In this document: one piece after another, positions 27,994 to 32,832 of the stretch
Layout: each line of letters opens with the position of its first letter
How positions within the stretch are numbered: position 1 is the first letter of the stretch
Assembly (NCBI RefSeq): GCF_000215995.1
Contig: NC_015680.1
Location: forward strand, 310,001 to 374,000
Direction: 5' to 3'
Length of the DNA stretch: 64,000 nt
Source: Pyrococcus yayanosii CH1
Lineage (GTDB): Archaea; Methanobacteriota_B; Thermococci; Thermococcales; Thermococcaceae
Notes under the pieces: generated by a model
Seen by the model: only the letters and a program-made list of their open reading frames with translations
Told to the model about the DNA's origin: nothing
Databases searched by the model: none
Translations under genes and position numbers: made by a program

Positions 27994-29307
27994 TCACTCC
28001 TCATCCTCCAATTCGTCTTCACCGTTGTGTTTCCCGTCTCCGTTGTTATCCTCAGAGTCCTCATACTGGCCGTTATCGTCATCATGAGACTCCTGCTCTT
28101 CGTAGTTTCCATTGTTGCCATAATCATTGTCGCTTTGTTCTTCATAGCTCTCATTCTGGTCGTCTTCGCTCTCCTCCTCGGCGTATTTTTCGTCATGTTC
28201 CCCATGATCGTCCTCGTGCTCGCTCTCATTTTCCTCTATATGTTCGTCGTGATCATCCTCGTGATCCTGTTCGTATTCATCGTGTTCTTTTTCATAGTAT
28301 TCCTCTTGCAACTCCTTAACTTCCTCAACGATGTCGTGGAGCTCTTCGTTGATGTCGTGGAGCATGTCAAGGGCCTCCTCGTACTGGCCGCTCTCAACGA
28401 GGGCGTTGAACTGCTCGTACATCGTCTGGAGCTCCATGAGGTTCTCTTGTAGGTAAGTGGCGTTTATCGTGGAGTTCTGGAGCATGGCAAGCAATTCATT
28501 CATGAGCTTCATCTGCTCCTGGAGCTTCTCCATGAAGGCTTGGCTTATCTCATCAGCCTTTGCGCTGACTATCTGCTCCTGGAGTTCCTCAACGGCATCC
28601 TCAAGCTTGTCCATTAGCTCTTCCGCATACTCAAGGTCTGTCTTGAGCGTTGTGACGTTGCCACTGGCAAGATCCTGGGCGACGACCATATAAGCCGCTT
28701 TAGTTTCGTTGTAAAGCTCCATGACGTAGGTGACGTTGAGCCCCTCTGCCTTAGCCTCCGCGATAACTTTCTCCACGTACGGGAAGTACTCACTGGCCCT
28801 CTGAAGTTCCTCCTTGGCGTCCATTATGAGTTCATAGTACTCGTAGTACTCGTACTGTTCCTCAATGTGTTCTTTGTAGTGGTCGGTGAGCTCCTCTATG
28901 ACCTCCTTGTAGAGGTAGAGGGCATTTATGGAGGCGTTTATGCTCTCGCTGTAGTTGCCGGCATTGTAAAGCTTCCACGCCTTGGTATGCATTGCTTCAG
29001 CCTGGGAGTAGAGCTCGAGGGTGTAGTTGGATATTGTGACGTTGCTCGCATTGAGCTCGGCCATCAGGCTCTCGCTATAGTTGGCGACCTTGTCCAGTAT
29101 CAGGAGCAGATTGTACGCCTGAACAGCGCTCGTGTTCGTTGTATTGGTGACGTTGGTCATGTTAACGGGGGTGGTGCTGGTCACGTTCGTGGCGTTGACC
29201 ACCGAGACGTTGCTCACTGCGGTTGTGTTGGTTGCCCCCCATGCAGTGCTTAGAGGTATCAGTGCCCCTATGAAGAGCACCAGCAGTGTTTTCATACTCA
29301 TCTTCAT
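27994..29307 (-). CDS. Secreted acidic glycoprotein with helical core and Asp/Glu/His tail
   Basis: 437 residues from the ATG at 29307 after CAGGTGAG. A signal peptide occupies about 1-25. I count 21 Asn-X-Ser/Thr sequons, many in a Thr/Asn/Val-rich stretch at 26-62. A long, mostly helical middle (~65-340) follows. The last ~95 residues are extremely rich in Asp, Glu, His and Asn with no hydrophobic anchor. No family was recognised. Such tails can bind metal ions or stay soluble in salt; that is speculation. The gene precedes the membrane-tethered regulator on the same strand. Confidence 0.85.
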   Translation of the reverse strand: MKMSMKTLLVLFIGALIPLSTAWGATNTTAVSNVSVVNATNVTSTTPVNMTNVTNTTNTSAVQAYNLLLILDKVANYSESLMAELNASNVTISNYTLELYSQAEAMHTKAWKLYNAGNYSESINASINALYLYKEVIEELTDHYKEHIEEQYEYYEYYELIMDAKEELQRASEYFPYVEKVIAEAKAEGLNVTYVMELYNETKAAYMVVAQDLASGNVTTLKTDLEYAEELMDKLEDAVEELQEQIVSAKADEISQAFMEKLQEQMKLMNELLAMLQNSTINATYLQENLMELQTMYEQFNALVESGQYEEALDMLHDINEELHDIVEEVKELQEEYYEKEHDEYEQDHEDDHDEHIEENESEHEDDHGEHDEKYAEEESEDDQNESYEEQSDNDYGNNGNYEEQESHDDDNGQYEDSEDNNGDGKHNGEDELEDEE

Positions 29308-29487: not shown

Positions 29488-29496
29488 CTTATAAAT
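29488..29496 (+). promoter_or_regulatory. TATA box for the membrane/XRE/ABC operon
   Basis: CTTATAAAT. The predicted start of transcription, about 25 bases on, falls inside the tandem palindromes at 29500-29531. Confidence 0.75.
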
Positions 29497-29499
29497 GAT

Positions 29500-29531
29500 G
29501 TAAAGTGAACTTTACGTAAAGGAAGCTTTAC
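29500..29531 (+). promoter_or_regulatory. Two perfect tandem palindromes, probable repressor operator
   Basis: GTAAAG-TGAA-CTTTAC (29500-29515) is followed directly by GTAAAG-GAAG-CTTTAC (29516-29531). Both have six-base arms and four-base spacers, so their centres are 16 bases apart. They start four bases after the TATA box and span the expected transcription start. A dimeric regulator bound there would block polymerase. The XRE protein encoded third in this operon (30294-30500) is the obvious candidate, which would make it autoregulated; this is inference. Confidence 0.8.
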
Positions 29532-29545
29532 ATGGAGGGAGCACC

Positions 29546-29821
29546 ATGATGAAAGTTGTTGGCGTATTGGGGATATTGGCAATTCTTGGTTACGTTTATT
29601 TAGTTCTGAGATTCGAGAACAGGGACGAGAGGTTCAGGACGATAAATGCAAAGAGTCACATATGGGCGGTTATGCTCCTCCTTTTCGTAAACTTGCTAGT
29701 ACAAACTCTCAACTACCTTAATAAAACCGACAAAATGTTCGTGTTAGGATTTACAGCTGCGGTAATAGTGGTGAGTATCGGATACATTCTGGGGTTTGTG
29801 TACTATTCGAAGGTGATGTGA
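29546..29821 (+). CDS. Small three-helix membrane protein, half-size relative of its neighbour
   Basis: 91 residues from tandem ATGs after GGAGGGAGCACC. Helices lie at about 3-22, 38-56 and 64-88. It contains an RDERFR segment and ends YYSKVM. The next protein has EDERTLR followed by two helices and ends YYSRVM, so this looks like a version of the C-terminal half of that family. First gene of the operon behind the tandem palindromes. Function unknown. Confidence 0.8.
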   Translation: MMKVVGVLGILAILGYVYLVLRFENRDERFRTINAKSHIWAVMLLLFVNLLVQTLNYLNKTDKMFVLGFTAAVIVVSIGYILGFVYYSKVM

Positions 29822-30292
29822 ATGAATGAGGCAATAGTTAATTTCATCATATGGGCTTTCTTGGCTATAATAACAACGTTAATCCTGCTCCAACTTTCAA
29901 AAAGTGATGAGAAAAAGAAAACACTCATCCCTGCAATGCTTGTGATATTGACAATGGGCTATTTGATGGGCTACGCCGTCAGCAACGGTAACTTACCCCT
30001 TGCATTTTCCGTCTTTTTGGTTGGAGGTATCATGCTCAATCTCTACTATGCTTCAATGAAGAGAAGAGGCTATGTGCTTGAAGACGAAAGAACTCTGAGA
30101 ATCGAAGAGATTTCAGCAAGAAGAACCCTTCAAGTGTTTATGATTGGATTGGCATTTGCTGTGATATACCTCTCGGTAGCCCAGCAGAAAAATCCGGCGC
30201 TCAGAGATGCATTTATTCTGGCAGAGGCTTTGCTCGTAGCTGTGATGCTCCTTCACATGGCGTTTAGAGCTTATTATAGCAGGGTGATGTAA
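29822..30292 (+). CDS. DUF2178-like five-helix membrane protein
   Basis: 156 residues, starting immediately after the previous stop. Hydrophobic helices lie at about 5-24, 34-52, 58-76, 103-120 and 129-150. The cytoplasmic loop carries EDERTLRIEEISARRT, resembling the DER motif of DUF2178 membrane proteins that are often encoded beside a small XRE regulator in archaea and bacteria. The role of the family is not known. The XRE gene follows one base after the stop. Confidence 0.8.
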   Translation: MNEAIVNFIIWAFLAIITTLILLQLSKSDEKKKTLIPAMLVILTMGYLMGYAVSNGNLPLAFSVFLVGGIMLNLYYASMKRRGYVLEDERTLRIEEISARRTLQVFMIGLAFAVIYLSVAQQKNPALRDAFILAEALLVAVMLLHMAFRAYYSRVM

Positions 30293-30293
30293 A

Positions 30294-30500
30294 TTGAAAA
30301 ACCGCCTAAGGGAGCTTAGAGAAGCAAGAGGATTGACTCAGGAAGAACTCGCTAAAGCCCTTGGCGTGACGAGGCAGACGATAATAGCGATTGAAAAGGG
30401 TAAATACGACCCATCGCTGAGACTGGCCTTCAAGATTGCAAGGTTCTTTGGGGTTAAAATCGAGGATGTATTCATTTACGAGGGTGATGAAGATGAGTAA
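30294..30500 (+). CDS. Small XRE-family HTH repressor
   Basis: 68 residues from a TTG after AGGGTGATG. Almost the whole protein is one Cro/CI helix-turn-helix domain (recognition region residues ~16-36, ELAKALGVTRQTIIAIEKGK) with an acidic tail. It is the compact type paired with DUF2178 membrane proteins. It probably binds the palindromes at 29500-29531. The next gene starts inside its last codons. Confidence 0.9.
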   Translation: MKNRLRELREARGLTQEELAKALGVTRQTIIAIEKGKYDPSLRLAFKIARFFGVKIEDVFIYEGDEDE

Positions 30501-30858
30501 GAAATTGGCCGGACTGATGGTTTATCTCCTCGGCACAGGCCTTGGCATAGCAAAGCCACCCATTGAACGACTGGCGTGTATGGAAGTGCCAAGCGGAGAT
30601 GTCTGCACGGGGGTAAACACACCCCTTCTAATCCTTGAGCTCGGCCTTGTGATGATGGGAGCGTTGCTTATGGGGCTTAGCCATGGCTTTAAAAACCATC
30701 ACGAATTGAATGGCTGGCTCGGAGTTTCGAGTGGCCTTGGCGTTGCCATCATCGGGAGCTACGCTGGGATAATGGAGCTGTTCCTTTTAGGGGTTACTCT
30801 AGCCACCCTTGGACTGCTCGTTTACAAAGTTGGGAGGGCTGAAAATGCCCATGGTTGA
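30493..30858 (+). CDS. Small four-helix membrane protein
   Basis: 121 residues from the ATG at 30493, after GGGTGATG; it overlaps the XRE stop by eight bases. Helices lie at about 5-20, 44-63, 75-91 and 94-112. Two Cys (near 29 and 38) lie in the first outward loop (ACMEVPSGDVCTG) and may form a disulfide. No family was recognised. It overlaps the start of the ABC ATPase gene by 14 bases, so it is part of the same operon and may help the transporter. Confidence 0.75.
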   Translation: MSKKLAGLMVYLLGTGLGIAKPPIERLACMEVPSGDVCTGVNTPLLILELGLVMMGALLMGLSHGFKNHHELNGWLGVSSGLGVAIIGSYAGIMELFLLGVTLATLGLLVYKVGRAENAHG

Positions 30859-31573
30859 GGTTCTGAACCTCGAGAAAGACTACGGAAAGGTCAAGGCTCT
30901 TAAGGGGATAAGCTTCGAAGTCCATGAGGGAGAGATATTTGGGCTCATAGGACCTAATGGGGCTGGGAAGAGTACGACGCTCAGGATACTGGCCACACTG
31001 CTCAGACCAACGGCCGGGAAGGTAACAATAGCAGGTTATGACGTTGTGGAGGAAGCTGAGGAGGTCAGGAAGCTTATAAGCTATCTGCCCGAGGAAGCGG
31101 GTGCGTATAAGAACCTCACAGGCCTCGAATATCTCCAGTTCATGGCGAGGCTCTACGCTAAGGACAAAAGGAGAGCCAAGGAGATGCTGGAACTTGGGAT
31201 TAGGCTTAGCGGCCTCGGAGACAGGCTTGGGGACAAAGTCTCCACGTATTCCAAGGGGATGACGAGGAAGCTTCTGCTCGCGAGGGCCCTTATGGTAAAA
31301 CCAAAGTTGGCGATCCTCGATGAGCCCACGAGCGGCCTCGATATAATGAATGCATACGAGGTCAGGAAGACCATAAAGGCCTTCGCCCGCGAGGGTGTAA
31401 CCTTCCTTATCTCGAGCCATAACATGCTGGAGGTCGAGTTCCTCTGCGACAGGGTTGCCATGATAAGCAACGGCCAGATAATCGAGGTGGGCACTCCAAG
31501 GGAGCTGAAGGAGCGCTACAATGCCCAGAACCTTGAGGAGGTTTTCATGAAGGCCGTGGAGGGAAGGGCATGA
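30845..31573 (+). CDS. ABC transporter ATP-binding protein (NatA/CcmA-like)
   Basis: 242 residues from the ATG at 30845; ATG 30851 is the alternative. The Walker A motif GPNGAGKST is at 36-44. The signature is STYSKGMTRK at 133-142 rather than the usual LSGGQ, as in drug/Na+ export ATPases. Walker B is LAILDEPTSGLD ending at 166. It pairs with the permease whose start overlaps its stop. The cargo is unknown. Confidence 0.93.
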   Translation: MPMVEVLNLEKDYGKVKALKGISFEVHEGEIFGLIGPNGAGKSTTLRILATLLRPTAGKVTIAGYDVVEEAEEVRKLISYLPEEAGAYKNLTGLEYLQFMARLYAKDKRRAKEMLELGIRLSGLGDRLGDKVSTYSKGMTRKLLLARALMVKPKLAILDEPTSGLDIMNAYEVRKTIKAFAREGVTFLISSHNMLEVEFLCDRVAMISNGQIIEVGTPRELKERYNAQNLEEVFMKAVEGRA

Positions 31574-32832
31574 GCGACTTCTGGGTAATATTCATGAAGG
31601 AGCTAAAGCATATGCTGAGGGACAGGGGCCTGATATTCGGAATAATCATCGTTCCTCTCATTCTGTACCCGGCACTCGGGCAGGTTGTCCAGCTTGGCAT
31701 GGAGCAGGCTCAGGAGGAAACGAAGGTCGTCATAGCTAACTTCGACGAGGGGCCTTATGGAGCTCTGCTGATAAAAGCCCTCATTGCCGCTCCGAACGTG
31801 ACGGTCGTTCAGATAAACGCGTCGAGCGTTGACGAGGCTCTACAGGAAGCTATAAATGGGGACCAGAACGTTCTCGTGATCATTCCCGCCAACTTCTCAG
31901 AGAGCATTGAGGCCAACGAGAAGGCCGTCGTCGAGGTCTACGGCATATTCGGAGGGATGAGTCTCGGGATGAGGGAGAGCGTGAGTGAAGGAAGGATAAA
32001 CGCCGTAGTTAACGTCCTTGGGGAGGAGCTGTCCAAGCTGAAGCTTAAGAACTTTGGAAACCCAGAGGCGGTTCTCCATCCCATAGAGGTTAGGGGATAC
32101 TCCGTGCTGAGGGGTAAAATAATAGATATGCCTCCCTCCGTCGTGGCAAACGTGCTTGCCTCGCAGGCTTTCTCGATACCGCTTGTAATATTCATAATGC
32201 TCACGCTCGTGTCCCAAATGGCCGCTGGAACAATGGCGAGCGAGAAGGAGAATAAGACCCTTGAGACACTCTTGACCCTGCCGGTGTCGAGAACGGCCAT
32301 AGTGGCGGGCAAGATGATGGGAACGGGTGTCATGGGTCTCATTGCGGCGATAGCCTATATGATTGGCATGAAGCGTTACCTTGGAACCTTCTCCCAGTCC
32401 AATATCAGCTTGGAGGAGCTGGGCCTACACGTAACACCCCTTGGCATGGCCCTCTTCGCCCTGACAATATTCCTTGCAATAACCTTCGCCCTCTCCCTTG
32501 CGATGCTACTCGGGATATTCGCCGAGGACATCAGGAGCGCCGGGACGCTCGTGAGCGCAGTCATGATGCCCCTGCTCTTTCCAACGTTCATATTCATGGT
32601 TACCGATGTCGAAGCACTTCCCGCAATAATCAAATACGCCCTGCTGGCGATTCCCTTCAGCCACCCAGTGCTTGCCTCAAGGGCCATGCTCCTGGGGGAC
32701 TACGGCCATCTCTACGTCAGCGTTGCCTACTTAGCCTTTGTCTCGGCGGCAATGCTCTACGTGACGGCAAGGTTCTTCAGGACGGAGAAGCTCTTGACGG
32801 CGAGGCTAAAGTTCGGGAAGAAGAAGCGGTGA
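31570..32832 (+). CDS. ABC-2 type permease (NatB-like)
   Basis: 420 residues. One helix lies near residues 20-40 (GLIFGIIIVPLILYPALGQ). An exported domain of ~160 residues follows, then a block of five or six helices from ~200 on, with the conserved EKENKTLETLLTLPVSRTAIV segment after the second helix. This matches NatB-type exporters. It forms a transporter with the ATPase upstream (four-base overlap). Last gene of the palindrome-controlled operon. Confidence 0.93.
   Translation: MSDFWVIFMKELKHMLRDRGLIFGIIIVPLILYPALGQVVQLGMEQAQEETKVVIANFDEGPYGALLIKALIAAPNVTVVQINASSVDEALQEAINGDQNVLVIIPANFSESIEANEKAVVEVYGIFGGMSLGMRESVSEGRINAVVNVLGEELSKLKLKNFGNPEAVLHPIEVRGYSVLRGKIIDMPPSVVANVLASQAFSIPLVIFIMLTLVSQMAAGTMASEKENKTLETLLTLPVSRTAIVAGKMMGTGVMGLIAAIAYMIGMKRYLGTFSQSNISLEELGLHVTPLGMALFALTIFLAITFALSLAMLLGIFAEDIRSAGTLVSAVMMPLLFPTFIFMVTDVEALPAIIKYALLAIPFSHPVLASRAMLLGDYGHLYVSVAYLAFVSAAMLYVTARFFRTEKLLTARLKFGKKKR

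Follow-up and report, generated by a model that had tools for sequence, protein, structure and literature searches.

The window analysed here, that is, the whole stretch of 64,000 nucleotides spanning positions 310,001 to 374,000 of contig NC_015680.1 of Pyrococcus yayanosii CH1, contains an operon that encodes membrane proteins, a small XRE regulator and an ABC-2-type transporter, and whose promoter carries two abutting palindromes. Its features are as follows (positions are those of the window).

29489..29496, + strand: TATA box TTATAAAT of the operon promoter, recognised from the sequence and from its near-fixed distance to the operator in 54 aligned promoters
29498..29533, no strand: full predicted 36-bp operator, AT-[GTAAAG N4 CTTTAC]x2-AT, as delimited by the 54-promoter alignment
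29500..29515, no strand: distal palindrome GTAAAGTGAACTTTAC, located between TATA box and predicted start site
29516..29531, no strand: proximal palindrome GTAAAGGAAGCTTTAC, at the predicted transcription start
29546..29821, + strand: 91-aa membrane protein with a DER motif (ENRDERFRTI), cassette gene 1
29822..30292, + strand: 156-aa DUF2178 (PF09946) membrane protein with a DER motif, cassette gene 2 (Pfam E 1.2e-14)
30294..30500, + strand: 68-aa CylR2-like XRE (HTH_3) regulator with a TTG start and recognition helix TRQTII (PF01381, 6.5e-22)
30493..30858, + strand: 121-aa hydrophobic membrane protein whose gene overlaps the XRE stop, found in 21/55 relatives
30845..31573, + strand: ABC-2-type transporter ATPase (TIGR01188-like, 1e-74, under that model's cut-off)
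31570..32832, + strand: ABC-2 permease (PF12698, 8e-33)

A purine-rich, BRE-like ATAAAAC sits immediately 5' of the TATA box, the tandem GTAAAG-N4-CTTTAC begins 3 bp past that box and the first ATG is reached at 29546. Both arms of each palindrome are perfect and the two copies abut, 16 bp from centre to centre, which bears out the preliminary description of this DNA, in which two tandem perfect 16-bp palindromes had been placed just after a TATA box. Judging by the usual archaeal TATA spacing, transcription would start at the proximal palindrome.

As for the encoded proteins, the 91-aa cassette protein has no significant Pfam family and the 121-aa hydrophobic protein no Pfam match. The 156-aa protein scores 54.7 bits against DUF2178, above the Pfam gathering cut-off of 22.8, and its model is helical, with DER (residues 88-90) lying between two long helices; a Foldseek comparison of this model with the PDB gave no significant match, and no paper on DUF2178 was found in the literature searched. 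Gene 3, a 68-codon ORF, is the small XRE regulator that had been assigned to the same operon from the outset. Its likeness to CylR2 is apparent both in sequence (phmmer E 7.6e-14 against 1utx, over residues 3-63, and 2.6e-19 against 9k3w) and in its AlphaFold model (pLDDT 92), which has five helices and short terminal strands, is of CylR2-like size and fold, and matches 1utx (CylR2) with a TM score of 0.88 and 9k3w (DR_2454) with one of 0.91. On the other side of the promoter, a divergent gene on the minus strand (27994-29307) encodes a protein of 437 aa that is signal-like at its N-terminus and, at its C-terminus, His-rich and very acidic; no convincing Pfam family was found for it.

Could the palindromes be a product of chance, or of local repeat structure with no regulatory role? 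Short AT-rich palindromes do arise by chance in genomes, but GTAAAG-N4-CTTTAC has no exact match in the whole 1,716,818-base genome other than these two sites, the reversed control pattern has none at all, and allowing one mismatch adds only 2 single sites (vs 1 for the reversed control). A motif common at unrelated places had been named beforehand as what would speak against an operator, and this genome-wide search found no exact site elsewhere. Under a first-order Markov model, 0.06 single perfect sites and 1.8e-9 abutting pairs are expected per genome, while any abutting pair of 6-N4-6 palindromes with the same arms would be expected 2e-6 times in the window. Since these expected numbers lie far below what is observed, the pair is not due to chance, as had been supposed from the improbability of such a doubling. 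A chance origin, which already has to contend with some 2e-9 pairs per genome, is refuted by conservation through the family and beyond, and its probability is negligible.

Conservation of the palindromes in Thermococcaceae

In a scan of 100 relatives, the pattern was found in nearly all genomes of the family, most of which have exactly two copies, generally an abutting pair (reversed controls gave 0 or 1), these counts being non-independent since the genomes are related. Two complete family genomes with no XRE hit (G007 and G060) have no exact site either. When ~6 kb of sequence was fetched round each XRE orthologue, the palindromic site was present at 52 of the 55 family loci, the other three having only 150, 360 and 1616 bases upstream before a contig end or cut. 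The 16-bp tandem occurs at all but one of the 52 site-bearing loci, and the 16-bp step is the same in every Thermococcaceae tandem; G005 has kept the XRE gene with a distal site that is degenerate in the promoter alignment. One locus (L227, genome G035) has two complete tandem operators, ~900 bp apart, 5' of a single XRE gene.

Alignment of 54 promoters shows near-invariance at the 24 positions of the half-sites and in the AT flanks at the outer ends, within variable surrounding sequence, with a TATA element ~10 bp upstream of the operator. The promoter-overlapping position described at the outset holds up, and the alignment makes the predicted operator a strong phylogenetic footprint. In Thermococcaceae, the proximal spacer is almost invariably GAAA and the distal spacer is variable, which would suit a proximal palindrome that acts on translation or stability as a hairpin in the mRNA leader (GUAAAG-GAAA-CUUUAC, with a GNRA-like loop), and folding at 37 C is indeed predicted to yield -6 kcal/mol. 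At 85 C, however, the predicted value is 0.0 kcal/mol, that is, the hairpin is unfolded; moreover, the 54 aligned promoters contain no compensatory stem changes, the inferred start site comes only after the distal palindrome and the spacer varies in bacteria, so that the probability of such a hairpin is very slim indeed.

The predicted operator lies upstream of the XRE gene, from which it is separated by 332-1648 bp and by a variable cassette comprising one to four small membrane genes, for which 15 cluster orders were found in 49 tiled loci (the tiling is automatic, a few items are doubtful and the lone cluster-F item appears spurious). At Thermococcaceae loci, operator and XRE are constant while the genes between them vary, and the link between the two that had been proposed thus holds, both being retained together across the family although the intervening genes differ. 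DER residues are found in 92 of the 97 cassette proteins. A Y-x-[RK]-x-M ending is seen in 83 of these 97 proteins, which belong to differing clusters (29546-30292 in the window, and relatives L181-L235), and the RVM codons at the ends of cassette genes include GGTGATG, which is Shine-Dalgarno-like for the following gene. On the 3' side of the XRE gene, the ABC-2 ATPase is present in 55/55 relatives and the permease in 54/55 (the exception is a short contig), and the ABC-2 exporter is a constant downstream partner of XRE. The cassette junctions, by their sequences, look standardised, as though genes were swappable.

In some genomes of genus g5 (L263, L264, L266 and L268), an extra single GTAAAG-N4-CTTTAC lies where an ABC-2 permease gene begins, outside the XRE operon, and this gene is likely a second member of the regulon.

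The same DNA word in bacteria

A DNA-first scan of 84,980 genomes of the GTDB collection with the word ATGTAAAGN4CTTTACAT, a form not met within the Thermococcaceae tandem (whose AT flanks are at the outer ends only), returned at least 119 stretches. Among the matches listed, a CylR2-like XRE gene lies beside the word in 58 of 119 loci, where random positions within these stretches give 7.3 ('beside' meaning an XRE of E < 1e-10 that is correctly oriented and starts between -200 and +600 bp), and about half of the loci have no XRE nearby. The loci that have one come from at least seven bacterial phyla plus archaea, the members included in a tree belonging to Bacillota, Pseudomonadota, Bacteroidota, Ignavibacteriota, Spirochaetota, Chloroflexota, Actinomycetota, Verrucomicrobiota and one archaeal MAG; this tree, of 121 XRE sequences with 67 usable columns, left the branching unresolved. 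At many of these bacterial loci, XRE adjoins a gene for a small membrane protein that contains DER or DEL. At six loci (L099, L114, L115, L120, L144 and L172), the word lies ~610 bp after the XRE start and not before it; those whose titles were read are Paceibacterota, Nomurabacteria or Parcubacteria, and another gene may be the target of the word there.

A protein-first sample consisted of 61 Bacillaceae genomes and 30 XRE loci picked without regard to the operator, with the exception of one (L283) in the genome that served as sample centre, which was itself operator-chosen. The site (with up to one mismatch, within 800 bp) occurs at 17/30 of these loci, shuffled half-sites giving a mean of 0.19 and a maximum of 2, and 7/30 have an abutting 16-bp tandem, GTAAAGN4CTTGAC-GTAAAGN4CTTTAC, with single mismatches in some. 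TTGAC is the -35 element, inside the distal site of this tandem, and the proximal site occupies the spacer to the -10. In other bacteria, the site that contains TTGAC precedes the perfect site by 21-54 bp, and the bacterial proximal site is found in the -35/-10 spacer or further downstream near the start.

The tandem is placed 3' of the TATA box in archaea, whereas in bacteria the sites lie on the -35 and spacer, and such placement on both promoter types is the geometry of a blocker. That a near-identical word precedes related repressor genes in many bacteria suggests that the switch spans two domains with unrelated promoter machinery. An XRE protein that helps to recruit TBP/TFB or RNA polymerase would have a precedent in restriction-modification systems, where some XRE-type C-proteins activate, and it would suit a site near the TATA box. 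Activation is nevertheless very improbable, given that the archaeal sites are 3' of TATA and extend over the start as inferred and that the bacterial ones overlap the -35 and spacer, both of which are positions from which a bound protein would block.

Recognition helix and half-site

Among operator-bearing relatives, 54 of them archaeal and 52 others nearly all bacterial, R27 and Q28 of the XRE protein are invariant and T29 is nearly so. Q28 occupies the same helix position as Gln28 of the 434 repressor, which contacts adenine. Archaeal XRE paralogues of ~50-60% identity without a GTAAAG site (loci L238-L258) fall into two classes. The first has RET for RQT at residues 27-29, plus R at 26 (RRET), and its upstream word is ATGTTA-N8-TAACAT, often in tandem at 21 bp; the second keeps RQT, with ATGTAA-N8-TTACAT upstream. 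With up to one mismatch, TGTTA-N8-TAACA is found at 11/11 archaeal and 2/2 bacterial RET loci, and TGTAA-N8-TTACA at 62/65 archaeal and 38/48 bacterial RQT loci. The base at half-site position 5 varies jointly with recognition-helix residues 26 and 28, the RET loci being mostly a single clade and therefore representing few independent events. Of the computational evidence for a reading of the palindrome by the XRE protein itself, this covariation is the strongest piece. For 27/113 XREs of the RQT type, the upstream stretch searched contains no site at up to one mismatch (some of these match the looser TGTAA-N8-TTACA core), so that sequence type alone is no guarantee of this particular operator.

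With XRE as the predicted binding partner, the palindromes might instead be the operator of another regulator (e.g. a global one), the XRE gene being merely a regulated passenger, and the single sites before the ABC-2 permease gene in some g5 genomes, which are off the XRE operon, would fit such an arrangement. It is very improbable, however, because it leaves unexplained both that the site follows CylR2-like XRE genes in archaea as well as in seven or more bacterial phyla, and that the recognition helix of these proteins co-varies with it.

A candidate repressor switch and known systems

The palindromes are very probably the doubled operator of the operon's own CylR2-like XRE protein, which would act as an autorepressor over the membrane genes and the exporter. 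Each 20-bp unit, ATGTAAAGN4CTTTACAT, would bind one XRE dimer (in the tandem, AT flanks stay at the outer ends only), and two adjacent dimers would cover the DNA from just past the TATA box to the start site, thereby blocking RNA polymerase recruitment. Repression would bear on (i) the XRE gene itself, (ii) the DER-motif membrane genes and (iii) the ABC-2 transporter. What the sequences show is the DNA word with its conservation, its association with XRE, its positions on two unrelated core promoters and its covariation with the recognition helix; from these features, we infer XRE binding, cooperativity and repression at the tandem. By analogy with what has been proposed for CylR1 with CylR2, the DER-motif proteins might serve as sensors that, on a membrane or peptide signal, release the repressor, whereupon the exporter would be turned on, a suggestion to which we give slightly less than an even chance. 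On a wider scale, and with the balance tipping modestly in favour, XRE, DER partner and 20-bp operator could form a portable module kept in Bacteria and Archaea, used on sigma-70 and TATA promoters, sometimes as an identical 16-bp tandem, with a code that pairs RQT with TGTAA and RET with TGTTA, and with, in Thermococcaceae, a swappable sensor cassette before one ABC-2 exporter.

To our knowledge, operators have been described for few archaeal transcription factors, and no paper with the exact site strings was found in the literature searched. A single DNA word and a single small protein family provide a testable repressor-operator pair for hyperthermophiles. A near-identical word accompanies relatives in Bacillota, Pseudomonadota, Bacteroidota, Spirochaetota and others; as archaeal and bacterial core promoters are unrelated, this amounts to a natural experiment on how a repressor can block either machinery. 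The RQT/RET pairing is a specificity code that could be tested by one or two substitutions, and it offers a handle on DUF2178-type membrane proteins.

The closest solved structure, DR_2454 of Deinococcus radiodurans (9k3w), is 61% identical in structural alignment, and no operator is described for it in any paper found. CylR2 of Enterococcus faecalis (1utx), a 66-aa XRE protein, has the same fold, with 48% identity in structural alignment; it binds a promoter and is paired with a small membrane protein required for induction (PMC3709268). A small membrane protein likewise adjoins XRE in the systems considered here, as DER genes in Thermococcaceae and at many bacterial loci. However, the CylR2/CylR1 regulator pair is divergent from the lantibiotic operon, whereas the XRE gene described here is inside the operon that it presumably represses, and the present system differs further by its archaeal TATA promoter, 16-bp tandem operator and ABC-2 transporter. 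A survey of palindromic motifs reported 223 clusters 5' of bacterial XRE genes and gel-shift binding for 9/10 tested pairs (Wang et al., 2025; PMC12565409). It draws on bacterial databases only, its main text contains neither the word archaea nor this half-site, and the bacterial form of the operator word may be among its supplementary motif tables. The 434 and lambda repressors, as well as C-proteins, are likewise small HTH dimers that use adjacent inverted repeats, but their half-sites differ and they belong to phage or restriction systems. Palindromic autoregulatory XRE operators are of a known kind in general, while what appears to be new is (i) the archaeal operator, in a form common with bacteria that includes the 16-bp tandem, (ii) the RQT/RET code and (iii) an operon that combines a swappable membrane cassette with an ABC-2 exporter.
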